Assembly (NCBI RefSeq): GCF_028688795.1
Contig: NZ_JAQTXM010000002.1
Span: forward strand, 124,001-188,000
From: Rhodoferax sp.
GTDB lineage: Bacteria; Pseudomonadota; Gammaproteobacteria; Burkholderiales; Burkholderiaceae_C
DNA length: 64,000 bases
Reading direction: 5' to 3'
The translations under genes and the position numbers were made by a program. Of the stretch, positions 6,115 to 63,543 are shown in pieces. Under the pieces are notes generated by a model. The model made no database searches. It had not been told where the DNA came from and was given only the letters and a program-made list of their open reading frames with translations. Position 1 is the stretch's first letter; every line of letters begins with the position of its first letter.

Positions 6115-7277
6115 ACCGGCGGGCGTAAGCGCCAGGCCGTGCGCGCGCCCAACGCCACACCAGCACCCACCGTCCAAAACACCAATGACACGCCCAATGC
6201 CGCCCCTGCGCTGCCAAACAGCATGGGCATCAACACGCTTGACCCGTTGATGGCCATCAGCCGAAAGCCCAATGCCTCGCCATGACGCGCCTCGGGCGTG
6301 ATCTGGTGCAAGGTGCTCATGATCATTGGCTGTACCGAGCCCAGTGAGATGCCCAGCAAGGCCGAGCAAATGCCCATTGTCAAGGCAGACGGCATCAACG
6401 GGTAGATGGCAAACAGCACGGCGGTGGCAAGCATGGCCGCAGTCACCACCACCCACTCATGCCAATGGGCCGCCAGCAGCGGCAAAGCCACTCTGACTGC
6501 GGTCGCAGCCAACGCAAAGCCGCCCAAAATGGCCCCAATGGCCGAGGCGCTCAGACCCCGCTCGTGGCCCAGCACGGGCACCACAAAGGTGTGCACGTCC
6601 CAGCACGACGACAGCAACCAGTTCACCAGCATCAGCCGGCGCATCATGGGCTCACGCATCAAATCCCAGGCACGCCCTTTTGCAGCACCCGGCTTGACCT
6701 CAACCGGTGGCAACTCCACCGTGTGCCGCACCCACAGCCAGGTCATCAAGGGCAGGCAGGCCAAAGCAAAAAACGCCACACGAAAACCACCCAGGTCAAT
6801 CAGCAATCCTGCCGACAGCGGTCCAATGAAGTTGGACAGCGCCGGGCCAATAGACAGCCAGCTGAACATGCGTTTGAGTTCGGTGTTGCTCTGTGCTGAG
6901 CGTCCCACATGGCGCTGCAGGCTGATGGCGGCCACACCCATGGACCCACCGGTCATCAACGCGCTCAGGCACAACACCGGAAAAATCGGAAAAGCCACCG
7001 CCAAACCCGCACCAGCAGAGGCGCTCAGCACGCAAAACCCAATGGGTCTCTTGAAGCCGTTGCGGTCGGCGTAGCGCCCCGCAGGCAAGGCCAAAAACAC
7101 CTGCGTCAAGGCAAACAAGGACAACAACACGCCCACTGCCAGCGCACTGTGCCCTTCGCGCAAGGCCATCAGCGGTGCTGCCATGCGCATCCCGGCCATG
7201 CAGGCGTGCAGGCAGATGTGCCCGGCAATCAGTCGGGTCAGCGCCACCGAACCCAGCGGAGCGACATCGCCTGTCAC
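6102..7277 (-). CDS. MFS transporter (12 membrane segments)
   Basis: A 391-residue hydrophobic protein with the major-facilitator loop motif GRYADRNGFKRP between segments 2 and 3. It is likely an inner-membrane exporter; the substrate cannot be read from sequence. The GTG start overlaps the stop of rmuC (GTGA), so the two are translationally coupled, though no functional link is known. Confidence 0.85.
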   Translation of the reverse strand: MTGDVAPLGSVALTRLIAGHICLHACMAGMRMAAPLMALREGHSALAVGVLLSLFALTQVFLALPAGRYADRNGFKRPIGFCVLSASAGAGLAVAFPIFPVLCLSALMTGGSMGVAAISLQRHVGRSAQSNTELKRMFSWLSIGPALSNFIGPLSAGLLIDLGGFRVAFFALACLPLMTWLWVRHTVELPPVEVKPGAAKGRAWDLMREPMMRRLMLVNWLLSSCWDVHTFVVPVLGHERGLSASAIGAILGGFALAATAVRVALPLLAAHWHEWVVVTAAMLATAVLFAIYPLMPSALTMGICSALLGISLGSVQPMIMSTLHQITPEARHGEALGFRLMAINGSSVLMPMLFGSAGAALGVSLVFWTVGAGVALGARTAWRLRPPVHKP

Positions 7278-17981: not shown

Positions 17982-19127
17982 TCAACCCGGTAGCACCCAC
18001 CCGGATTCAGCCCAAGAAACCAGCAACTCAAAGGCTTGGGCGCTGAGCTGGCCAACTTCATCGGCAGATAGTTGGCGTCCGTTGGCGAGGGCGCGCATCA
18101 AGCCGGCATCACGGCCAGAAGCGGTAAAGCTCTCGCCATTGATAAAAATGTGTTGCGCATCAAACATCATGCGGGTGCGCCGATCCAGCCGACAGCCCGT
18201 TTGATTGAGCAACTCCGCCAGCCCATCCGTGGGCTCTACGCCTTCAAACCACACGCTGGGCTTGGGCTCGGTCATGTATTCACCAAAACCACGCCCAAAT
18301 GCTTGATCGTCCGCCAATGCGTCACGCAAGGCATCTTTAGCAAATTCAAGCATTCTGGATGGAATTTCTGCGGGTTGCGCGACCGCCATCTGGTCGGGAT
18401 CCTGGTACAAAGTCAACCCCACTGCCTCTTCTGCATCTTCAGCCAGGCGCTGTAGCAGCTCCCGCGCCACTTCGGCACGATTGGGAATGCGAAATCCAAT
18501 TGAATAGGTCATGCACTCTCCCTCGGCAATGCCATCATGGGCATAGAGCGGCGGCAGGTAAAGCATGTCGCCAGGCTCCAATAGGTACTCTTCTTCAGGC
18601 TCGAAGTTGGCCAGGATTTTTAAAGGTACATCAGGCTGCAAACTCAAGTCTTTCTGGCGGCCAATGCGCCAACGCCTCTTGCCGTGCGCCTGCAACAAAA
18701 ATACGTCGTAGCTGTCGTAGTGCGGCCCAACACCACCTTGGTCTGTGGCGTAGCTGATCATCAAGTCATCCAGTCGCGCATCGGGCACAAAGCGAAACTG
18801 ATTCATCAGCGCGTGCACCGCGTCATGGTGCAGGTCAACGCCCTGCAACAACATCGTCCAGCCGGGCTGCTTGAGTGGCGGCAAGGCACGCCGCTCAAAC
18901 GGACCATGCTTGAAGTGCCAACCGGCCGTTGCACTAGGTGTCTGAATCACCATGCGGGTTTGCACATCTTCACTGGCGGCCAACTCAAACAACTCAGCGC
19001 GATCCAGCAGGGGCTTGAAATCGGGAATGGCCTGGCGCACCAACAATGGCTTTTTCTGCCAGTGCGTATTCATGAACTGTTGCGGGCTCAAGCCCCCCAG
19101 CAAGGGCAGCGGTTGGGTGATGTCCAT
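17982..19127 (-). CDS. roxA: Ribosomal protein L16 arginine hydroxylase-like cupin (RoxA/YcfD)
   Basis: A 381-residue JmjC/cupin 2-oxoglutarate oxygenase. The N-terminal LGGLSPQQFMNTHWQKKPLLVR is characteristic. Iron ligands are His and Asp in GPHYDSYDVFLLQ and the distal His in LPPLYAHDGIAEG. The family hydroxylates an arginine of L16 (YcfD in E. coli). Start at 19127 because GGAGA is correctly spaced upstream; the open frame extends 11 residues further. It is divergent from the slyD-like gene with only 40 bases between. Confidence 0.88.
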   Translation of the reverse strand: MDITQPLPLLGGLSPQQFMNTHWQKKPLLVRQAIPDFKPLLDRAELFELAASEDVQTRMVIQTPSATAGWHFKHGPFERRALPPLKQPGWTMLLQGVDLHHDAVHALMNQFRFVPDARLDDLMISYATDQGGVGPHYDSYDVFLLQAHGKRRWRIGRQKDLSLQPDVPLKILANFEPEEEYLLEPGDMLYLPPLYAHDGIAEGECMTYSIGFRIPNRAEVARELLQRLAEDAEEAVGLTLYQDPDQMAVAQPAEIPSRMLEFAKDALRDALADDQAFGRGFGEYMTEPKPSVWFEGVEPTDGLAELLNQTGCRLDRRTRMMFDAQHIFINGESFTASGRDAGLMRALANGRQLSADEVGQLSAQAFELLVSWAESGWVLPG

Positions 19128-55612: not shown

Positions 55613-56962
55613 TCAGGGCGTGATGCCGTGCTTCTCCATCAGCCGGTACAGGGTCATGCGCGAAATCCCCAGGTCACGCGCCGCACGGCTCACGTTGCTG
55701 CCACTTTCTTGTAGGCAACTGTGAATGGCATCGCGCTCGGCGCGTATGCGCGCATCGACCAAGGCTTCTCCGTTTTGCAGTCCATTCTGGCCATTGACCT
55801 CTTTGGGCATCTCCAAACCAAGGTCTGCAGGCGTTATCAAATAGCCCTCAGCCATCACCATGGCGCGTCTGATGTGATTGATGAGTTGACGCACATTGCC
55901 CGGCCAATCACACGCTTTGATGGCCTGCATGGCCCGGTTGCTAAAGCCAGTGAGCCTTGAATGCTTGTCACATGAAAACAACTTGAAAAAGTGCTGCGCC
56001 AACAGTTCCAGGTCCTCTTTTCGTTCCCGCAGGGCTGGCACCGTGAGCGGAAGCACGTTCAGCCGATACAGCAGGTCTTCGCGGAAGATGCCTGATTTCA
56101 CAGCGTCTTCAAGGTGCATGTGTGAGGCGGCAATCACCCGAACGTCCACCTTGATGGTCTGCGAGGACCCAACCCGGTTGATGGTTGCCTCTTGCAGAAA
56201 ACGCAGCAGGTTCACCTGCATTTCATGCGGCAGGTCGCCAATTTCATCAAGAAACAAGGTGCCGCCATTGGCCGTCTCAATCAGCCCTTTTTTCTCTCTG
56301 ACGGCACCAGAGAAGGCACCGCGCTCGTAGCCAAACAGCTCGGACTGAATCAGCCCACTGGGAATGGCGCCGCAATTCACCGCCACAAAAGGGCCACTGG
56401 TCCGACGCGAGTGGTTATGAACCGCATGCGCAGCCAACTCCTTGCCGCTACCACTTTCACCCCAAATAAGCACCGGCGCGTCGGTCAGTGCAATCTTGCC
56501 AATTTGGCGGCGCAAATTCTTTATCATGGCGCTTTGGCCCACCAGCCCCATATCACGCTCACCCGATATGTCCATCGCGGGTAAGGTGCTCAACTCTGCG
56601 TAGCCATAGGCGTGGCCCAGCGTGTGGCTCAGGCGAGCGGTGTCAATGGGCCAGGTATGAAAATCGAACAGGTGCTGAACAATCAAGCTTCTGTAAGCGG
56701 GCAATTTAATGGTGGAGGCATCAAACACCCCCACCCATTGGGTCGACTGATGCGCATCAAGCAACGCATCAATCTCTGCCACATCAGCATGGCCTTTGTC
56801 ATTTAACAAAAGTAGTCCAACCTGATTGGCCCGCTGGCCAAGCTCCTTGCGAGCCGCATTCAGGTCGTTGATCACATGCAAATCCCACGATGACGACAAA
56901 TTTGAAGGCGCGGCCAGCAACGAGGGGTCACCCAGGTTGATGACCAGCAAGGTTCTAGACAT
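55613..56962 (-). CDS. Sigma-54-dependent activator (VpsR-like) of the fibre locus
   Basis: A 449-residue enhancer-binding protein. Residues 1-125 form an atypical receiver-like domain without an obvious phosphorylation Asp, as in VpsR-type regulators. The AAA+ domain has Walker A WGESGSGKELAAHAVH, the sigma-54 loop GAFSGA (usual GAFTGA), and Walker B GGTLFLDEIGDLP. A Fis-type helix-turn-helix ends the protein (VSRAARDLGISRMTLYRLM). VpsR relatives often sense c-di-GMP. It is the last gene of the leftward fibre gene string and probably activates the -24/-12 promoter at 60994. Confidence 0.85.
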   Translation of the reverse strand: MSRTLLVINLGDPSLLAAPSNLSSSWDLHVINDLNAARKELGQRANQVGLLLLNDKGHADVAEIDALLDAHQSTQWVGVFDASTIKLPAYRSLIVQHLFDFHTWPIDTARLSHTLGHAYGYAELSTLPAMDISGERDMGLVGQSAMIKNLRRQIGKIALTDAPVLIWGESGSGKELAAHAVHNHSRRTSGPFVAVNCGAIPSGLIQSELFGYERGAFSGAVREKKGLIETANGGTLFLDEIGDLPHEMQVNLLRFLQEATINRVGSSQTIKVDVRVIAASHMHLEDAVKSGIFREDLLYRLNVLPLTVPALRERKEDLELLAQHFFKLFSCDKHSRLTGFSNRAMQAIKACDWPGNVRQLINHIRRAMVMAEGYLITPADLGLEMPKEVNGQNGLQNGEALVDARIRAERDAIHSCLQESGSNVSRAARDLGISRMTLYRLMEKHGITP

Positions 56963-57132
56963 CTTTTATCCCTTTGCATTGTTTTACGGCCTGTCCGCAT
57001 GGGCACAAATGCACCTATTGCGGATCGCACATTCACAACTGAATGCCTGCCAAGCTTAAGCAGCAGCACTCAATAAGGGCTTGATATTTCTCATGGGTAC
57101 CGCCAGTCACGGCGGCTGCAGGAGGCCTGCGG

Positions 57133-57660
57133 CTAGCGGCTACCGAGCGCGCCCGTCAGCGCGTCGTTCAATACCGTTTGGATGTTGATCGCCTTGAGCA
57201 TGCCCAAGCTGTTCACACCAGTGTTGATGATGGTCAGCGACTGAATTTGCTGGTCGTTCAGGCTGTTTTGGATCAGTGTGCCAGTCAAACCGCCAGACAA
57301 GGCGCCAGCATCAACAAAATTTTGGGGCCCGATTTGTATCAGGCCCGATTCGGCAATGGCTGCACTGGCCACTCGGGCCTGATCAGCCGTAATCTGGCCA
57401 ATGTCAGGCAAGTTAAAACTGGTTTGATGCACCATTTCACCATTCACCAAGACGTTGCGAACCAGTCCAAAAGACACAGCCAAACCAGCGCCCACATCAA
57501 AACCGCCACGCTGGGCGTCAAGCTGCTTTTCGCTCACCGCAGTCCATTCGTCAGGCAGAAAGGCCTTTTTTTCTCCAGCACCCAAGCCATTGCAAAAGCC
57601 TACAACACCTGCCAGCAGCAACAGGCCTGCGCGGATCAGCTTGACTGGACGATTGTTCAT
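57133..57660 (-). CDS. Secreted fibre-subunit-like protein with RGGFDV and QNS motifs
   Basis: A 175-residue protein with a signal peptide (about residues 1-29). Residues 47-56 read LDAQRGGFDV, a double-glycine motif like a C39-peptidase cleavage site. The C-terminal part has QNS-x5-IQ-x2-TIIN at 131-146, shared with the gene two upstream, and Asn/Ile/Leu alternations suited to beta strands. I know no named family. It follows the C39 peptidase gene by 11 bases. Inferred: exported and processed subunit or nucleator. Confidence 0.7.
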   Translation of the reverse strand: MNNRPVKLIRAGLLLLAGVVGFCNGLGAGEKKAFLPDEWTAVSEKQLDAQRGGFDVGAGLAVSFGLVRNVLVNGEMVHQTSFNLPDIGQITADQARVASAAIAESGLIQIGPQNFVDAGALSGGLTGTLIQNSLNDQQIQSLTIINTGVNSLGMLKAINIQTVLNDALTGALGSR

Positions 57661-57671
57661 TTTGTTCAGCC

Positions 57672-58355
57672 TTAAAAGTCGCCTGGACCAAATTTTCCGA
57701 TGGTGATGCGGCCAAGCCCATCCATACTGGCAGCCGCCGCCAAAGGCGCCCTGGGCGCTACCAACCAGTCTTCTGCCGCATTAAATTTGGCCTCCTTTTG
57801 CTTGTTGTGAATCACAAACAGCAGCTTGTTGACCCAAATGGACTGAAACCCTACACGCGAAATAGCCCGCGTGCCGCTTGAGGGGTCACCAATCAAAATG
57901 CGTCCGTCTTGCAGGCCCTTGATCACCACAAAATGGTGGTAGCCCTTGTCTGAAATCAGCACGATGGCGGGCAGGCCTGATTCAAGCAATTTGTCCAGCG
58001 GCAGCTCAAAGCCATCGGCCTGAAATTGGTGTGCCGCCAAATAGGCTTTCATGTCAAGCATTGAAAAGCCTTCGCGGCGAATTTTGGCCTGGTCGCCTCG
58101 GGCAAACATCTCATCAAACACCGACTGTTCTGTCACTGGGTAGTTGTAGTGGTAGGTGAGCAAAGTGGCCACGGCAGCCGAGCCACAGCTGAAATCCTGT
58201 TCTTGCCTCTTGGTCGACTTGAACCTGGCTTCCTTCAAACTTGTGACATGGACCGCGTAACGCCCCCCGATGCCAGCCAAATCCAGCACATCGGCATGAG
58301 CCGGTGCGATCACAGCTGCCAGCGCAGCAACCATCCAGGCAAGGTGCGCACGCAT
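57672..58355 (-). CDS. Periplasmic C39-family cysteine peptidase (FapD-like)
   Basis: A 227-residue protein with signal peptide (cleavage after about AHA, residue 21) and a C39 domain. The catalytic Cys is in QDFSCGSAAVATLLTYHY, His in GYHHFVVIKGL and Asp in IGDPSSGT. C39 enzymes cleave after double glycine in bacteriocin leaders; FapD of the Pseudomonas amyloid operon is a C39 protein of this size. It lacks an ABC-transporter part. The two flanking genes both encode RGGFDV motifs. It lies three bases after the 123-residue gene. Confidence 0.82.
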   Translation of the reverse strand: MRAHLAWMVAALAAVIAPAHADVLDLAGIGGRYAVHVTSLKEARFKSTKRQEQDFSCGSAAVATLLTYHYNYPVTEQSVFDEMFARGDQAKIRREGFSMLDMKAYLAAHQFQADGFELPLDKLLESGLPAIVLISDKGYHHFVVIKGLQDGRILIGDPSSGTRAISRVGFQSIWVNKLLFVIHNKQKEAKFNAAEDWLVAPRAPLAAAASMDGLGRITIGKFGPGDF

Positions 58356-58358
58356 GAT

Positions 58359-58730
58359 TTATTTCATCTGCACGTTGATGATGGTGGCGTTCTGGATCAG
58401 CACGTTTGAGCCAGAGTTTTGCACCACCATCGGTACACCGCTTGAGTTGGCGAATGAACCGTTGGCAATGTAATTGCTGCCACCGAGCACATCCACCGTT
58501 GAGTTGTTGGCAACCGTGCCACTCAACAACATGTCATTTTTAACCACATCAAACCCACCGCGGTAGCCTTCCAATTGGGCAGCCGCCAATGGTGTGCCGA
58601 AACTTGATTCCGAAACTTCAGTGGCTGCGACGGGCGCATCACTTGAATTAACGTCCGCAGCCAGGCACCAGCCTGCCGAACACAAGGCCAAGGCCAATGT
58701 GGCTTTTACTCCAAAAACAATGGATTGCAT
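58359..58730 (-). CDS. Secreted small protein with RGGFDV and QNS motifs
   Basis: A 123-residue protein; ATG 58730 follows GGAGG at ideal spacing (an earlier in-frame ATG at 58742 is less likely). Signal peptide about residues 1-24. LEGYRGGFDV occupies 53-62. The rest is rich in Asn, Ser, Val and Gly (VANNSTVDVLGGSNYIANGSF), ending QNSGSNVLIQNATIINVQ. The Asn/Gly/Gln pattern recalls curli-like repeats. Not a recognised family. Confidence 0.7.
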   Translation of the reverse strand: MQSIVFGVKATLALALCSAGWCLAADVNSSDAPVAATEVSESSFGTPLAAAQLEGYRGGFDVVKNDMLLSGTVANNSTVDVLGGSNYIANGSFANSSGVPMVVQNSGSNVLIQNATIINVQMK

Positions 58731-58785
58731 CTTGTCCTCCAATTTGTTGTTTGACTGCCACTCACAGGCAATTCACCTCAACAAC

Positions 58786-58834
58786 GAAAAAGCCGGTCGG
58801 TGGGTGTCGCGGTTGCTTACCCCACCGACCGGCT
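58786..58834 (-). terminator. Strong terminator/attenuator after the repeat-protein gene
   Basis: A 13-base-pair perfect GC-rich stem (58792-58804 with 58821-58833), loop of 16, is followed on the minus strand by a T run. It separates the repeat-protein gene from the downstream small-protein, peptidase and regulator genes, probably reducing their expression. Confidence 0.85.
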
Positions 58835-58841
58835 CAGACGC

Positions 58842-60917
58842 TTACTTGCCTACAGCCAGGTTGGCCTGCACATTGACGCTTTGTTGCACCAAGGCAGCCA
58901 GGCCGCTGTTTTGCGCCATCACCATGATGCCCGCTGCTGACTGACCGATGCTGGTCATGGCGTTGGACATATCAAAGGCACCTGTGGTCACACTCAGCTG
59001 GCCACCTGCGCCGCCTACACCACCAGTTGCACCATAGCCTACGCCACCTGTGCCACCGTTGCCAACGCCACCTGCAGCACCCACTGCACCGACTGCACCG
59101 TCACCACCTTGCGAAGTGCCACTGGTGGCACTTCCGTTAGAAGCCGTGCTCGATGAGCCGCCGTTGGTTGCGCTGCCATTGGTTGCTGTCCCACCTGCAC
59201 CACCTGCACCACCGGTGTTGCTGGCTGTGCCGCCAGCGCCGGCAGTGGCTGTACCACCGGCACCTGTCGCTGTGGCTGTGCTGGTGGCTGCGCCACCTGT
59301 GCTGCTGGCTGTGCCGGCGGTACCTGCGCCACCCGTTGAAGTGGCTGCACCGGTGGCGTTACCACTCGTCGCGGTCGATGCCCCTGTGGTACCGGCACCG
59401 CCAGTGGATGTGGCCTGTCCGGTTGCTGTGCCGCCGTTGGATGTTGATGACCCGGTGGCTGCCCCTGCGGTAGAAGTCGACGTACCTGTACCAGCGCCAG
59501 CTGTCGAGGTTGCGGTACCTGCGGCAGCACCACCCGTGTTGGTACCTGTCTGTGTGTTAGCACCAGTGGCCGATGTACCGCCCGCTGCGCCGGTTGCTGC
59601 ACCAGACTGAGTAGTAGTTGGTCCATTGGTCGCATAGCCACCGGCGCCGCCAGGAGCCGCAGGATCAGACGCGCCTGCGCCACCTGCCCCGCCTGCTGCA
59701 CTATTGGTTGAAGTGGCACCACCAGCCATCGTTTTGCTGTTGGCGTCAGCACCGCCGGTGCCGCCCATCTGCTTGGAGGCTGCCAAGCCACCAACGGAGG
59801 CATCTGCAGCTATAGACGAGCCACCTTTGGTCATGTCCACTGCAGATGACGAACCACCCTTGTTCATGTCCATCGCAGAAGACGAACCACCTTTGGTCAT
59901 ATCCATCGCGGCAGAGGAACCACCTTTGGCCACAGAGGTGTTATCAACAGAACCGGTCTTGGTCATGTCCATAGCATTGGATGAGCCACCCTTGGCATTG
60001 GCGCTCGACTCAGAACCCGATGCCTTTTGGCCCACGAGGTTCGTGGCGTCACCGCCGTAAGCTTTGGCGTCGCCACCGTTGGCACCTTTGGCACCCATGG
60101 CGGCTCCGCCATTGCCAGCATCGCCGACACGGGCGCTGCCATTTGTGGCGCTGCCATTTGTGGAGTCACCCGATGTGGCACTGCCATTGCTTGCACTGGA
60201 TGTACCGCCTGCACCACCTGAGCCACCTGAGCCACCAGCACCGCCAGCACCACCAGTTCCACTGCCAGCAGCACCGCCTGTTCCAGCACCACCGCCACCG
60301 CCACTAGAACCATTGGCAGAACCACCATAGTTCTTGGCCACATTGCCAATGCCGTAAATGGTGTTGCCGCCCACCGTGCCGTTCAACTCTGTTTTATTGA
60401 TGGCCTCGCTCTTGTTGAAGGCGTTGTTGAAGTTGGATGTGGCCACGCCACCATTGTTGGCCGCTGTGCCGTAGTCCTTGGCCTTGGCGTCGCCTGAGTT
60501 GTCGCTGTTGGTTTTGGTTCTCGTGTCAGTATGTGTATCAGTCTCAGTTTTGGTAGAGGTACTGTTGTCAGTGTCGTTTTTAGTGTACGTACGTGTGTCA
60601 GTCTCCGTTTTGCTGTGAGTGCTGTTGTCGGTGTCGTTTTTGGTGTATGTCCGGGTGTCAGTTTTGGTATTCGTACTGCTGTCAGCCCAAGTGCTGTTAT
60701 CGGTCGCATTGGAGCCTTCGTTGGCTTGAATATTGCCCAAACCGGTCTGATCTGAAACAGCAGTCGCCGTCTGTTGCAGTGCGGGCCCTGAACTCTCTGC
60801 AGTAACTGCAGGCACTGCAAGAGTCACGTCACCTAAATTGTTGGTCGGATTCGCCAAAGCCTGGCCAGCGATACCGAAAGCCAGTGCGATGCCGGATGCC
60901 AATAATGTCTTGTTCAT
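58842..60917 (-). CDS. Large Gly/Ser/Thr/Ala repeat protein, probable fibre subunit
   Basis: A 691-residue secreted protein. ATG 60917 has AAGGA six bases before it; signal peptide MNKTLLASGIALAFGIAGQA-LA. Regions: 70-140 with repeats of KTETDTRTYTKNDTDNST; about 175-260 Gly/Ser; about 300-370 with 11-residue repeats KGGSSSAMDMT; about 400-640 GTA/GGA-rich low complexity; C-terminus with IGQSAAGIMVMAQNSGLAALVQQSVNVQ. Lys, Asp and Asn are confined to the repeats; no Cys. It looks like a structural, perhaps amyloid, adhesin. A sigma-54 promoter precedes it. Confidence 0.75.
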   Translation of the reverse strand: MNKTLLASGIALAFGIAGQALANPTNNLGDVTLAVPAVTAESSGPALQQTATAVSDQTGLGNIQANEGSNATDNSTWADSSTNTKTDTRTYTKNDTDNSTHSKTETDTRTYTKNDTDNSTSTKTETDTHTDTRTKTNSDNSGDAKAKDYGTAANNGGVATSNFNNAFNKSEAINKTELNGTVGGNTIYGIGNVAKNYGGSANGSSGGGGGAGTGGAAGSGTGGAGGAGGSGGSGGAGGTSSASNGSATSGDSTNGSATNGSARVGDAGNGGAAMGAKGANGGDAKAYGGDATNLVGQKASGSESSANAKGGSSNAMDMTKTGSVDNTSVAKGGSSAAMDMTKGGSSSAMDMNKGGSSSAVDMTKGGSSIAADASVGGLAASKQMGGTGGADANSKTMAGGATSTNSAAGGAGGAGASDPAAPGGAGGYATNGPTTTQSGAATGAAGGTSATGANTQTGTNTGGAAAGTATSTAGAGTGTSTSTAGAATGSSTSNGGTATGQATSTGGAGTTGASTATSGNATGAATSTGGAGTAGTASSTGGAATSTATATGAGGTATAGAGGTASNTGGAGGAGGTATNGSATNGGSSSTASNGSATSGTSQGGDGAVGAVGAAGGVGNGGTGGVGYGATGGVGGAGGQLSVTTGAFDMSNAMTSIGQSAAGIMVMAQNSGLAALVQQSVNVQANLAVGK
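59818..59931 (-). repeat. 33-bp tandem repeats in the repeat-protein gene
   Basis: Three full units (59818, 59851, 59884) and a partial one code for GGSSxAMDMTK; a diverged 36-bp unit is at about 59949. Base differences are mostly silent. Confidence 0.85.
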
Positions 60918-60993
60918 GGTTGTTCCTTTGAAAATCAGTTGAATGAAACTTGCTTGGCTCGGCGCCATCTTTACGCCAATCCGCTCATCAAAC

Positions 60994-61009
60994 AGCAAAA
61001 TCAATGCCA
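60994..61009 (-). promoter_or_regulatory. Sigma-54 (-24/-12) promoter
   Basis: The minus strand reads TGGCATTGATTTTGCT, with GG and GC ten bases apart; consensus is TGGCACG-N4-TTGC. Transcription would begin near 60984, about 67 bases before the repeat-protein ATG. Confidence 0.8.
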
Positions 61010-61126
61010 ACCTGGTTTTTAAGAATGTAAGTCGTTGATTTATATAAAACAATTTACTTTTTCAACTGCACAAATCTCGACTTTTTAACGTGAAATTTCA
61101 AAAATTTGACGGTGCCGCAAGCATGT

Positions 61127-61144
61127 TGTAACGAGCCCGTTACA
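61127..61144. promoter_or_regulatory. 18-bp palindrome, candidate activator site
   Basis: TGTAAC-N6-GTTACA (seven-base arms TGTAACG/CGTTACA) lies about 120 bases upstream of the -24 element, a typical distance for enhancer sites of sigma-54 activators. Intergenic region 60918-61453 holds also this and the next repeat. Confidence 0.45.
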
Positions 61145-61167
61145 CATTCCCTCACTAACCCGAAACA

Positions 61168-61195
61168 AGCAGTGTTCAACTCAATTAACACTGCT
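61168..61195. promoter_or_regulatory. Nine-base perfect inverted repeat in the divergent promoter region
   Basis: AGCAGTGTT-N10-AACACTGCT lies between the two divergent fibre-locus genes. It is either a second regulator site or a hairpin; an A run follows on the right. Confidence 0.45.
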
Positions 61196-61453
61196 AAAAA
61201 TCGCTCTTGATTTTTAATACCTTTGAGTGGCGGCAGGCCTTTTAAGTGCCTTTTTACAAGTGTCTCAGCCTTGTGACAACGGGTTTGTACTAACCCACCC
61301 GGTGCTCATGCAACCGGGCATGTGCTCTCAAATCCATATCAATAACGGCATTGATTATTCGCAATGCGCTGGTCTGGTGCCACTTGAACAATCTGAACGC
61401 TGATTGCATCTTCGTCACTTTTTTGACGGGCAGCTCACTCAAAGGACTTTGTC

Positions 61454-62803
61454 ATGTCGAACAAAAAACCGCCATCGTTCACTGCCGTAGCCTGCGCTGT
61501 TGTGTTGTTGATTGGCAGCACGGTTCACGCCCAAACCTATTTAGGCAGCGAGCCAGATGTGCGCGCCAGACTCGACACCCTGACCCAAGAACTGGCAGAT
61601 CAAGCCAGGCTGCTCGCCGACCTTGAATCATTTCGGCAACAGTATTTTGAGCAGCGCAAGCGGCTGATGTCGCTGGAGCAACAGGTGACACAACAGCAAG
61701 AGCTTCTGGATCACCTGCGCGGCGTTGCCAGCTGGGACGTGCTGGCCTCGCAACGTGGCGCGGGTACGGTGGGTGAGCCGCAACGTCTGGCGCAGGCGCA
61801 GCCGACCGAACCCGCGCCTGTGGGCAAATCGCCCTCAACTGAAGGCCGTCCGCCCGAGGTAGCGCCTTTGTTTGAACAACCGGGTGTGCTCACACCGCAG
61901 GGCAAGTATGTGCTGGAGCCATCGCTGCAGTATGGCTATTCGTCAAGCAACCGCGTGGCCCTGGTGGGTTACACCATCATTCCGGCGTTACTGATCGGAC
62001 TGATTGACGTGCGCGAAGTCAAGCGCAACACGGTAACGACGGCGTTGTCGGCACGTTATGGCGTCAGCAGGCGGCTGGAGTTGGAGCTTCGGGCCCCCTA
62101 CGTTTACCGCACAGACTCCACCGTGAGCCGTGAAATCTTCCAGGGCAGCTCAAGTGAAAGCATCTTCTCAGCCAACGGCATGCACATGGGTGACCTGGAG
62201 CTGGGCGCACGCTACCAATTAAATGACGGCGGCATAGACAAGCCTTTTTACGTGGGCAGCTTGCGGGTAAAAACACGCACCGGCACCGACCCGTTTGAAG
62301 TGGTCACTGATTGCAAACAGCGCTGCATTGGCAACACCACAGGCACCGGCTTGCCACTTGATTTGCCAAGCGGCTCAGGCTTTTATTCTCTGCAAGCGGG
62401 CCTGACCGTGCTCTACCCCTCAGACCCCGCGGTGTTTTTTGGCAGCGTGACTTACATGCACAACTTTGCCCGCGACAACGTCAGCCGCCTGGTGCTTGAT
62501 GGCGAGCGTGAATTTTTGGGTACGGTCGCACCTGGCGACGTGCTTGGCTTTAACTTCGGGATGGGCGTCGCCTTGAACGAAAAGTCGTCGTTCAGCCTGG
62601 GTTATGACCACAGCTCAGTGGCGCGTACCCGCCTCAATGGTGAAGTGGTCGCAGGGTCGGTCAGAACCCAGCTGGCCACCTTGCTGCTGGGCTACTCATA
62701 TAGGTTCAGCCCCAATACCAGCTTGAATGTGTCAGTGGGTGCCGGCTTGACGCGCGACACGCCCGATGTGTCGCTGACAGTGCGCTTGCCCATGACCTTC
62801 TGA
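61454..62803 (+). CDS. Outer-membrane barrel with N-terminal coiled coil (FapF-like exporter)
   Basis: A 449-residue protein. Signal peptide to about residue 26 (VHA-Q), then a coiled coil (about 34-95: LTQELADQARLLADLESF, LMSLEQQVTQQQELLDHL), a Pro-rich linker, and from about residue 150 a beta-barrel domain of alternating strands ending in Phe (VSLTVRLPMTF). FapF of Pseudomonas has the same plan: trimeric coiled-coil plug plus barrel that exports amyloid subunits. Good AAAGGA site before the ATG. It is divergent to the repeat protein. Confidence 0.75.
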   Translation: MSNKKPPSFTAVACAVVLLIGSTVHAQTYLGSEPDVRARLDTLTQELADQARLLADLESFRQQYFEQRKRLMSLEQQVTQQQELLDHLRGVASWDVLASQRGAGTVGEPQRLAQAQPTEPAPVGKSPSTEGRPPEVAPLFEQPGVLTPQGKYVLEPSLQYGYSSSNRVALVGYTIIPALLIGLIDVREVKRNTVTTALSARYGVSRRLELELRAPYVYRTDSTVSREIFQGSSSESIFSANGMHMGDLELGARYQLNDGGIDKPFYVGSLRVKTRTGTDPFEVVTDCKQRCIGNTTGTGLPLDLPSGSGFYSLQAGLTVLYPSDPAVFFGSVTYMHNFARDNVSRLVLDGEREFLGTVAPGDVLGFNFGMGVALNEKSSFSLGYDHSSVARTRLNGEVVAGSVRTQLATLLLGYSYRFSPNTSLNVSVGAGLTRDTPDVSLTVRLPMTF

Positions 62804-62811
62804 AGCGGGTA

Positions 62812-63543
62812 ATGACTGGGGCACCGGAGGTTTTCATGCAGTCAACTTACCAGACCGGCAGCGCCAGAGGCAAAAACCCGGTAGCGTGTTCGCCAACACC
62901 TGCGTTGCTCAGCCAATTGATTCAGATACCGGCAGGTCAGGCCGTCATTGAAGGTCTGCTTGCACTCCCCGTCGAACCTATCGGCCTCGTCTTGTTTGCG
63001 CACGGCAGTGGCAGCAGCCGCCACAGCCCGCGCAACAATTTTGTAGCAAACGTGTTGCATGAAAAAGGCATGGGCACGCTGTTAATGGACCTGCTCACAC
63101 CGGTTGAAGACCAAAACTACGGGGTGCGTTTTGACATTGACCTGCTCACCCAGCGCCTGCTGTTGGCCACCAAATGGGCGCAAGACAATACGGCGACACA
63201 TCACCTGCCGATTGGTTACTTTGGCGCCAGCACCGGTGCAGCTGCGGCATTGCGGGCGGCTGCCGCTCTGGGCGACAAGGCGAAGGCTGTGGTGTCGCGC
63301 GGCGGACGGCCTGACTTGGCGGGGCACCTTGGGCTGGTGTCTGTAAAAGCCCCTACCTTGCTGTTAGTTGGCGGCCATGACACCGATGTTCTGAAACTCA
63401 ACCAGGCGGCCTATACCTTGCTTCCGTGCACCAAGAAGCTGAGCATCGTGCCCGGTGCCACGCATCTGTTTGAAGAAGCCGGCACACTGGAACAAATGTC
63501 GAGCCAGGCCGCCACCTGGTTCAGCCATTACTTGGCAGACTGA
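62812..63543 (+). CDS. Alpha/beta hydrolase (dienelactone hydrolase-like)
   Basis: A 243-residue protein with GLVLFAHGSGSSRHSPRN, the nucleophile elbow GYFGASTGAAAAL (Ser), Asp in VGGHDTDVL and His in PGATHLFEE. The family pairs with phosphoribosyltransferase-like genes, as here. ATG 62812 or 62836 could be the start; it follows the exporter by nine bases but probably is not part of the fibre system. Confidence 0.8.
   Translation: MTGAPEVFMQSTYQTGSARGKNPVACSPTPALLSQLIQIPAGQAVIEGLLALPVEPIGLVLFAHGSGSSRHSPRNNFVANVLHEKGMGTLLMDLLTPVEDQNYGVRFDIDLLTQRLLLATKWAQDNTATHHLPIGYFGASTGAAAALRAAAALGDKAKAVVSRGGRPDLAGHLGLVSVKAPTLLLVGGHDTDVLKLNQAAYTLLPCTKKLSIVPGATHLFEEAGTLEQMSSQAATWFSHYLAD

Follow-up and report, generated by a model that had tools for sequence, protein, structure and literature searches.

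Gene content of the locus

The locus described here lies at positions 55613–62803 of a 64,000-nt stretch of DNA from Rhodoferax sp. (assembly GCF_028688795.1, contig NZ_JAQTXM010000002.1), which is referred to below as the window. It encodes a C39 peptidase, an outer-membrane barrel protein, a sigma-54 activator and three secreted proteins that we call BIG, S1 and S2. A preliminary description of the DNA had proposed a divergent relative of the Pseudomonas Fap system, and all six genes are open reading frames (ORFs) at the positions that it gave. Transcription on the minus strand follows the order BIG, S1, C39 peptidase and S2 and then, after a gap, the sigma-54 activator; the gene for the outer-membrane protein is on the plus strand, divergent from BIG. 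Signal peptides of the locus proteins were assigned by eye.

The barrel protein (449 aa; 61454–62803, plus strand) consists of a signal peptide, a coiled coil, a disordered linker and a barrel. Its NCBIfam scores were 172.5 bits for FapF, with an equivalog cut-off of 700, and 66.1 bits for FilC, with a cut-off of 630. A 20-sequence barrel profile matched the solved FapF structures with expectation values (E) of 6.5e-53 to 8.3e-51, the next PDB entry being at 0.029. The AlphaFold2 model (mean predicted local distance difference test score, pLDDT, 78.3) displayed a helix at residues 36–92, a low-confidence linker at about 92–142 and a mostly confident barrel from residue 152. When this model was used for a fold search of the PDB, the 18 top matches were FapF chains without exception (E 2.0e-20 to 6.2e-15), and a COG4313 channel came next. 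A P-T-G motif has been described for FapF and COG4313 proteins (PMC6173800); the consensus of our barrel alignment at this place is L-P-T-G-S-G-F, and the window protein reads P-S-G there. By profile, fold and NCBIfam, the barrel belongs to the FapF family, which bears out the coiled-coil-plus-barrel exporter of the preliminary description; its first ground for rejection, a barrel of another family, thus does not apply. The FapF frames of loci L123, L125 and L118–L121 lack a coiled coil or have a short one, and also lack the leader-like site described below; some lineages may be able to do without the coiled coil, unless the starts have been misread. An alpha/beta-hydrolase-like gene at 62812–63543 of the window begins on the same strand 8 bases past the FapF stop codon, and co-transcription is possible.

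The peptidase (227 aa; 57672–58355, minus strand) carries a signal peptide and matched Pfam PF03412 with E 3.5e-21, as anticipated from the letters of the DNA. Catalytic residues C57, H141 and D157 are invariant among 19 aligned sequences. A comparison with FapD profiles had been suggested; FapD is indeed the top NCBIfam score at 133.8 bits, ahead of FilB at 121.6 bits (cut-off 475), but it falls below the equivalog cut-off of 330. The protein is therefore best described as a predicted exported, FapD-like C39 peptidase under the NCBI cut-off.

The secreted proteins

BIG (691 aa; 58842–60917, minus strand) is rich in Gly, Ala, Ser, Thr and Asn, and has imperfect tandem repeats and a conserved C-terminus. 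S1 (123 aa; 58359–58730, minus strand) and S2 (175 aa; 57133–57660, minus strand) are small. S2 comprises a signal peptide, a pro-segment, a double-glycine-like leader and a mature beta-rich domain, and the gene stands in the FapE position; S1 has the same leader and a QNSG-type C-terminus in common with BIG. The 691-residue low-complexity protein and two small secreted proteins of the preliminary description are thus present as frames with signal peptides.

None of the three had a Pfam match at E 1, and neither S1 nor BIG had an NCBIfam match at that threshold, the FapB, FapC and FapE models included. The sole NCBIfam match of S2 was to MprA_tail on residues 7–23, within the signal peptide (E 0.0065; 17 bits, under the cut-off of 19.7). 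As a control, the NCBIfam FapE, FapB and FapC models scored over their cut-offs on Pseudomonas-family loci (L228 and L230). Genome G460 probably belongs to the Pseudomonadaceae, as judged from a CrcZ search and from FapD, FapB, FapC and FapE scores over cut-off in its relatives. The expectation that none of the secreted proteins would resemble FapB or FapC, and that they represent new subunit families, agrees with these results and with the Fap-repeat profile, which is empty in such loci except L052 (see below).

Among 75 rows, some of them cut by contig ends, BIG ORFs range from 193 to 1105 aa; Gly makes up 28.7%, Ala 18.3%, Ser 12.6%, Thr 11.7% and Asn 8.5%. The 75 aligned sequences share a conserved end around S-A-A-G-I-x4-Q-N-S-G-x2-S-L-V-Q-Q-S-V-N-V-Q. 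Profile comparison related the S1 C-terminus to that of BIG (E 2.9e-6; score 32.6 vs at most 18.3 in 60 shuffles), and S1 to S2 over the leader plus C-terminus (E 1.6e-10; score 63.7 vs at most 17.4 in 60 shuffles); the mature parts of S1 and S2 alone gave E 9e-6. Because S1 is related to S2 and its C-terminus to that of BIG, S1 bridges the two, which recalls FapB, the minor subunit of Fap that shares repeats with the major subunit FapC. BIG is probably the main subunit of the product, which would be a fibre. The predicted structure of S2 is of middling confidence (mean pLDDT 74.9).

A double-glycine-like leader in S2, S1 and the FapF linker

Double-glycine leaders of C39 substrates carry a Leu at position −7 and a Gly-Gly pair at −2/−1. 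Both small proteins fit this layout, here downstream of a signal peptide: the leader core L-x3-R-G-G followed by F spans residues 47–53 of S2 (57502–57522, minus strand) and residues 53–59 of S1 (58554–58574, minus strand). Next to the C39 gene, S2 has R-G-G in 83/83 cases, with a Leu four residues ahead of the Arg. In 84 rows, the window included, aligned on R-G-G, the leader frequencies are V(−12) 69%, S(−11) 39%, L(−7) 100%, D(−6) 72%, R-G-G 100% and F(+1) 91%. Only L47, R51, G52, G53, R68, Q131 and N132 are invariant in 45 aligned S2 sequences, and the S2 model has a predicted helix at 44–50 directly before R-G-G. The window FapF contains two leader-like sites at the end of the predicted coiled coil, L-x3-R-G-V at residues 85–91 (61706–61726, plus strand) and L-x3-R-G-A at residues 97–103 (61742–61762, plus strand).

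The motif [LMIV]-x3-R-G-[GATSRK] was counted against 60 shuffles per protein set. It occurred in 83/83 S2 proteins (shuffled mean 14.1), in 65/82 S1 proteins (mean 2.6) and in 46/72 FapF periplasmic linkers (mean 3.8, maximum 7); with the last residue restricted to [GATS], the linker count was 41/71, whereas 500 shuffles averaged 2.8 and never exceeded 9. No enrichment was seen in the C39 proteins (0/83; shuffled 8.9), the G/S/T/A/N-rich ORFs counted as BIG (6/87; 13.5), the regulator (6/38; 11.8) or other ORFs longer than 300 aa (229/776; 274). Across the window's genome, L-[DE]-x2-R-G-G-F had four matches, namely S1, S2 and two others that we judged to be outside real genes, one being opposite longer ORFs and one having no same-strand ORF.

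In Pseudomonas, FapD acts in the periplasm and requires its catalytic Cys, and its target was given as unknown in 2017 (PMC5557850). The same paper describes the Fap proteins as having no canonical C39 sites, FapE as yielding no peptides from roughly the first 70 residues and the FapF linker as possibly cut. A double-glycine motif in FapF has been noted (PMC5135000), and in a 2025 view FapD is thought to process FapE and the periplasmic region of FapF (PMC12822426). The leader motif suggests where FapD-type proteases may find their targets, and its presence in both small proteins and in the pore suggests that one kind of cut could trigger both.

The motif could also be a docking element for a C39 protein that acts as a chaperone, with nothing being cut. 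Some C39-like domains are inactive and only hold their substrate (PMC6173800; PMC5557850), and many FapF sites end in G-A, G-T or A-G, not in G-G. Such a role is unlikely in view of the invariant catalytic C, H and D, the invariance of R-G-G in S2 and the finding that a Cys-to-Ala substitution in Pseudomonas FapD abolishes secretion (PMC5557850). Under another explanation, S1 and S2 would be secreted peptides with double-glycine leaders, akin to microcins or signals, and BIG would be an adhesin unrelated to them, given that a C39 domain with double-glycine substrates typifies bacteriocin and competence exporters (PMC5135000) and that the solved structural relatives of the locus C39 are C39 domains of such exporters. 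We regard this as very improbable: signal peptides were recognised by eye in all the proteins, the C-terminus of S1 is related to that of BIG, a FapF pore accompanies them, and no ATP-binding cassette (ABC) exporter was recognised in the neighbouring ORFs, which were read by eye with seven proteins scanned against Pfam.

Recurrence of the gene set

A sample of 300 Burkholderiales genomes was searched with the window barrel, and 39 genomes, the window's own included, were positive. The sample contained 45 FapF places, 40 of which were examined, in 39 regions; the others were the window itself, G126, G265:C261, G073 and G026. By profile, 21 regions held S1 and S2, one was partial, nine were Fap (FapE plus repeats) and eight were other, although the 21-to-9 ratio may lean towards the S1/S2 type since the query barrel was taken from such a system. 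Seven of the eight other regions consist of C39 and barrel alone. A C39 gene was present in 36/39 FapF regions and absent from L040 (an orphan), L058 (a Fap-like locus) and L064 (a contig end), so that separate occurrence of the homologues, which the preliminary description had held to be damaging, is not the rule. With the S1/S2 set in 21 of the 39 FapF-bearing Burkholderiales regions opened, the gene set is not a chance neighbourhood. The orphan FapF-type barrel at L040 (G056:C1:2010899-2011900) has no C39, S1 or S2 in its 20-kb stretch, and the same genome also holds a full system, L033.

A second set comprised named genomes, being the best 80 of at least 589 C39 relatives of any class, scanned with the C39 alignment. 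Within these stretches, several of which stop at contig ends, profiles found C39 in 80/80 loci, S2 in 80/80, S1 in 79/80, FapF in 72/80 and the regulator in 35/80. S2 adjoins 83 C39 copies and S1 adjoins 82, a count that a C39 copy having neither S1 nor S2 would escape. The same gene set, sought in other genomes as had been proposed, thus recurs across named Burkholderiales and Xanthomonadales loci; the genera include Rhodoferax, Variovorax, Polaromonas, Massilia, Duganella, Paraburkholderia, Burkholderia (with B. cepacia LK29), Cupriavidus, Ralstonia, Luteibacter, Dyella, Lysobacter and others. The order BIG-S1-C39-S2-FapF is often all on one strand, and elsewhere FapF and the regulator are inverted.

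Some loci were unusual in composition. A Croceicoccus plasmid (Alphaproteobacteria) carries S1 and S2 beside a C39 gene, annotated as 'C39 family peptidase', 'transporter' and hypothetical proteins; the records of Cupriavidus metallidurans CH34 (L225) and of Aeromonas gave no annotated features. In L052 (the G268 region) an S1/S2-type system and a Fap locus stand side by side in a 20-kb stretch, with C39 genes at 6548–7249 and 18082–18834. The Massilia loci L151, L159 and L163 each contain two C39-S1-S2 units per stretch, and a single FapF and a single regulator lie between the two units, a doubling that hints at subunit diversification.

The regulator and a predicted sigma-54 promoter

The activator gene (55613–56962, minus strand) encodes a VpsR-type N-terminal domain, a sigma-54 AAA+ domain with the loop GAFSGA and a Fis-type helix-turn-helix. 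The sigma-54 activator named in the preliminary description was confirmed by Pfam (Sigma54_activat, E 1e-68; VpsR, E 2.2e-13). A homologue is found near C39/FapF in 52/106 S1/S2-type loci and in 27/33 Fap loci, and 47 of the 52 read GAFTGA. Fap loci are adjoined by a gene of the same family (BrfA type); the likeness is one of family and place and not of direct sequence comparison. In P. fluorescens PF07, brfA lies next to fapA-E in reverse orientation and acts together with RpoN on a −24/−12 promoter of these genes (PMC9207406), and BrfA senses cyclic di-GMP (c-di-GMP; PMC13101488).

A sigma-54 (−24/−12) promoter-like site agreeing with 10/12 consensus positions lies at 60994–61010 (minus strand), 77 bases upstream of BIG. 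Sites were accepted as GG-N10-GC with at least 10 of 12 consensus bases in the region before a gene. A scan of the whole window gave 162 matches vs 183 expected, so the single window site means nothing alone, and it is the cross-locus test that carries the claim: a site precedes BIG in 36/67 loci, as against 1/67 antisense and 50/840 other ORFs. Elsewhere in the loci it was found before S1 in 4/80, FapF in 1/72 and the regulator in 0/34 cases. The suggestion of sigma-54 control therefore gains support from many loci at once.

The link with FapE

Canonical FapE, encoded after FapD, has L-x3-R-G-[RK]-[FY] about as far from its N-terminus as the leader core is in S2. When a profile of 84 S2 rows was compared with one of 22 FapE rows, the latter chosen for having the leader element, the two matched over 39 columns (E 1.2e-5; score 40.2 vs at most 22.9 in 60 column shuffles), in a region made up of the leader plus the first strand. 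We then picked the proteins by profiles of their mature parts. R-G-[RK]-[FY] was present in FapE of 30/33 Fap loci, the remaining three being one FapB-looking pick, one T-G-K-Y and one R-G-A; R-G-G was present in S2 of 105/106 S1/S2-type loci, one locus being without S2 by that profile. Both counts keep some circularity, since locus classing used leader-bearing profiles and the mature profiles were built from motif-bearing members, and where an ORF had several matches the R-G-G one was preferred. The last leader residue separates the systems, Gly in the S1/S2 type and Arg or Lys in Fap, and S2 occupies the place of FapE and, as judged from the profiles, shares its leader module. C39 specificity residues that might explain this difference were uninformative: at the thresholds set, the groups differed at only two positions, 59 (Ser here and Ala in Fap) and 92 (Ile here and Val in Fap).

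Relationship to Fap and Fil

In trees of C39 and FapF (80 rows, with the long, badly cut C39 rows L066 and L128 dropped), the S1/S2-type loci form a group with Shimodaira-Hasegawa-like approximate likelihood ratio test (SH-aLRT) values of 96 and 98, and the Fap loci another with values of 95 and 98; Fil-like and other loci are in neither. The Fap-repeat profile found no repeats in S1/S2-type loci except L052, which also holds a Fap locus, whereas Fap loci hold 3 to 15 repeats, mostly 6; FapB and FapC of the Fap system have about three imperfect repeats apiece. These differences bear on the view that the locus encodes a divergent canonical Fap amyloid, with BIG as FapC, S1 as FapB and S2 as FapE. 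That view draws on the same gene order around C39 and FapF, on the leader region that S2 and FapE have in common and on the low-complexity arms of some FapC proteins, which resemble BIG by eye. The missing repeats and the separate groups leave it doubtful, and membership in canonical Fap was rejected.

Could the system instead belong to Fil, the putative pilus of Acinetobacter and Pseudomonas? The FilB score of the C39 peptidase and the FilC score of the barrel speak for a connection. So does an earlier C39 tree that included L066 and L128, in which seven Fil-like rows join the S1/S2 type and not Fap (weakly, SH-aLRT 83, midpoint root). Both scores are, however, far under the Fil cut-offs and below the Fap scores, FilA gave no match, and the C39 and barrel of Fil-like loci are outside the S1/S2-type group of the grouping trees, which together make Fil membership very improbable. 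Because of those Fil-like rows and the midpoint root, we do not use 'sister of Fap' and prefer 'cousin': with its own groups and no Fap repeats, the system is, on present phylogenetic and profile evidence, a cousin of Fap and not a member. This agrees with the earlier proposal of a related export system having a FapF-family barrel, a FapD-like C39 peptidase and different secreted proteins.

A third class was seen in the Pseudomonas family (L236–L239), where a C39 gene and a FilC-like barrel (scored in L236) lie after an ORF about 900 aa long. L236 encodes a small FilA-like protein (51.2 bits) whose mature part starts with a leader-like M-D-D-x-A-L-x-G-x-T-G-Q, as does, by eye, that of the L237 small protein; the leader logic may run through these other C39-barrel systems as well.

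Proposed mechanism

We propose, with a probability of roughly 70%, that the locus encodes a system for secreting a fibre or matrix protein, which would be a cousin of Pseudomonas Fap with a C39-leader mechanism and sigma-54 control. All products would leave the cytoplasm by the Sec route, and in the periplasm the FapD-like peptidase would recognise a leader of about V-S-x3-L-D-x2-R-G-G, followed by F, in S2 and S1, together with the matching site at the coiled-coil end of the FapF-type pore. Cleavage would set the mature S1 and S2 free and detach the pore coiled coil from plug and barrel, so that one protease may license both cargo and pore, a form of gating. BIG and S1, which share the QNSG-type C-terminal element, would leave through the barrel to build a surface fibre or matrix, with S2 as a putative FapE-like accessory. 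The VpsR-domain activator encoded next to these genes would drive expression from the sigma-54 promoter, with c-di-GMP as its probable signal, as for BrfA.

Besides the placing of the Fil-like rows in the earlier C39 tree, several observations weigh against this proposal. Cleavage, secretion and fibre formation are themselves what we infer from the sequences. In the barrel part of FapF, which is not expected to be cut, the motif occurs in 26/72 proteins, a number equal to the highest of 60 shuffles (mean 14.9), so the motif pattern alone is not specific. In 26/72 FapF linkers the motif is missing, some having R-A-G or R-A-R-G variants and some ORFs having no coiled coil; 17/82 S1 proteins lack the strict motif, mostly with S-G-G or S-G-K at that place; and BIG carries no leader. 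The mature parts of S2 and FapE alone did not match significantly in profile comparison (E 0.052), and the link between them is therefore best taken as a shared leader module at the same gene position and not as full homology. A search of the S2 model against solved folds gave no match (best E 0.98). Tried as Fap-repeat proteins, S1 and BIG were both rejected: the S1 C-terminus is Fap-repeat-like by eye, but its profile comparison gave E 0.0033 with a probability of 9.7%, and that of BIG was not significant (E 0.039). Finally, the regulator falls inside the fetched stretch in only the 35 of 80 named loci.

In its broadest form, the proposal holds that Proteobacteria possess another, as yet unnamed class of surface fibre dependent on FapD and FapF, that this class outnumbers Fap in Burkholderiales, that its one periplasmic C39 peptidase cuts the same leader in two secreted subunits and in the pore linker, one cut setting off both cargo release and pore opening, and that the R/K site of FapE is the FapD target in Pseudomonas. 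We would give this wider claim even odds. If it is true, the R-G-[RK] site of FapE would identify that target. The loci supply an explicit candidate for a FapD-type site: it never varies in the protein at the FapE position, is common in the pore linker and is cryptic in Pseudomonadaceae FapE; because the site is explicit here and cryptic there, the FapD-target question becomes open to point mutation and mass spectrometry.

Fap has been viewed as an evolutionarily fixed system (PMC12822426). The S1/S2-type system would qualify that view, and screens anchored on FapB/FapC repeats would miss this branch. PMC3792158 counts most additional FapD and FapF matches as false positives and describes the B. 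cepacia complex as lacking fap genes; the S1/S2-type system is present in records under the names B. cepacia and B. ubonensis. That fapD and fapF can occur together outside complete Fap operons is already known (PMC6173800). No earlier description of the gene set or of its leaders was found among the matches listed, in a literature mostly without subscription journals and with bioRxiv outside it.

Comparison with known systems

The bacteriocin C39 exporters, such as PCAT and ComA, have in common with the present system the C39 fold and the leader logic of L at −7 and G-G at −2/−1. In the present system, by contrast, the peptidase is a free protein that has its own signal peptide, a signal peptide also precedes the leader, and no ABC exporter could be recognised in the vicinity. 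The Fil putative pilus (FilA-FilF, in Acinetobacter and L236-like loci) is alike in having a C39 peptidase beside a FapF/FilC-type barrel and a small secreted protein; its small protein is another one (FilA-like), its loci gave no S1, S2 or Fap-repeat match, and its C39 and barrel group separately.

The nearest comparison is with Fap (fapABCDEF). In the present system no FapA was seen, and BIG and S1 stand where Fap has the repeats of FapB and FapC. The leader ends in R-G-G here and in R-G-[RK] in Fap, the C39 and FapF proteins fall into separate groups, and the leader-like site in the FapF linker was not seen in most of the canonical FapF sequences read. The likenesses, on the other hand, extend over the whole arrangement: a FapD-type C39 peptidase with a signal peptide, a FapF-type coiled-coil barrel, the same gene order, a small FapE-position protein with the same leader element, a sigma-54 promoter and a neighbouring activator of the same family.

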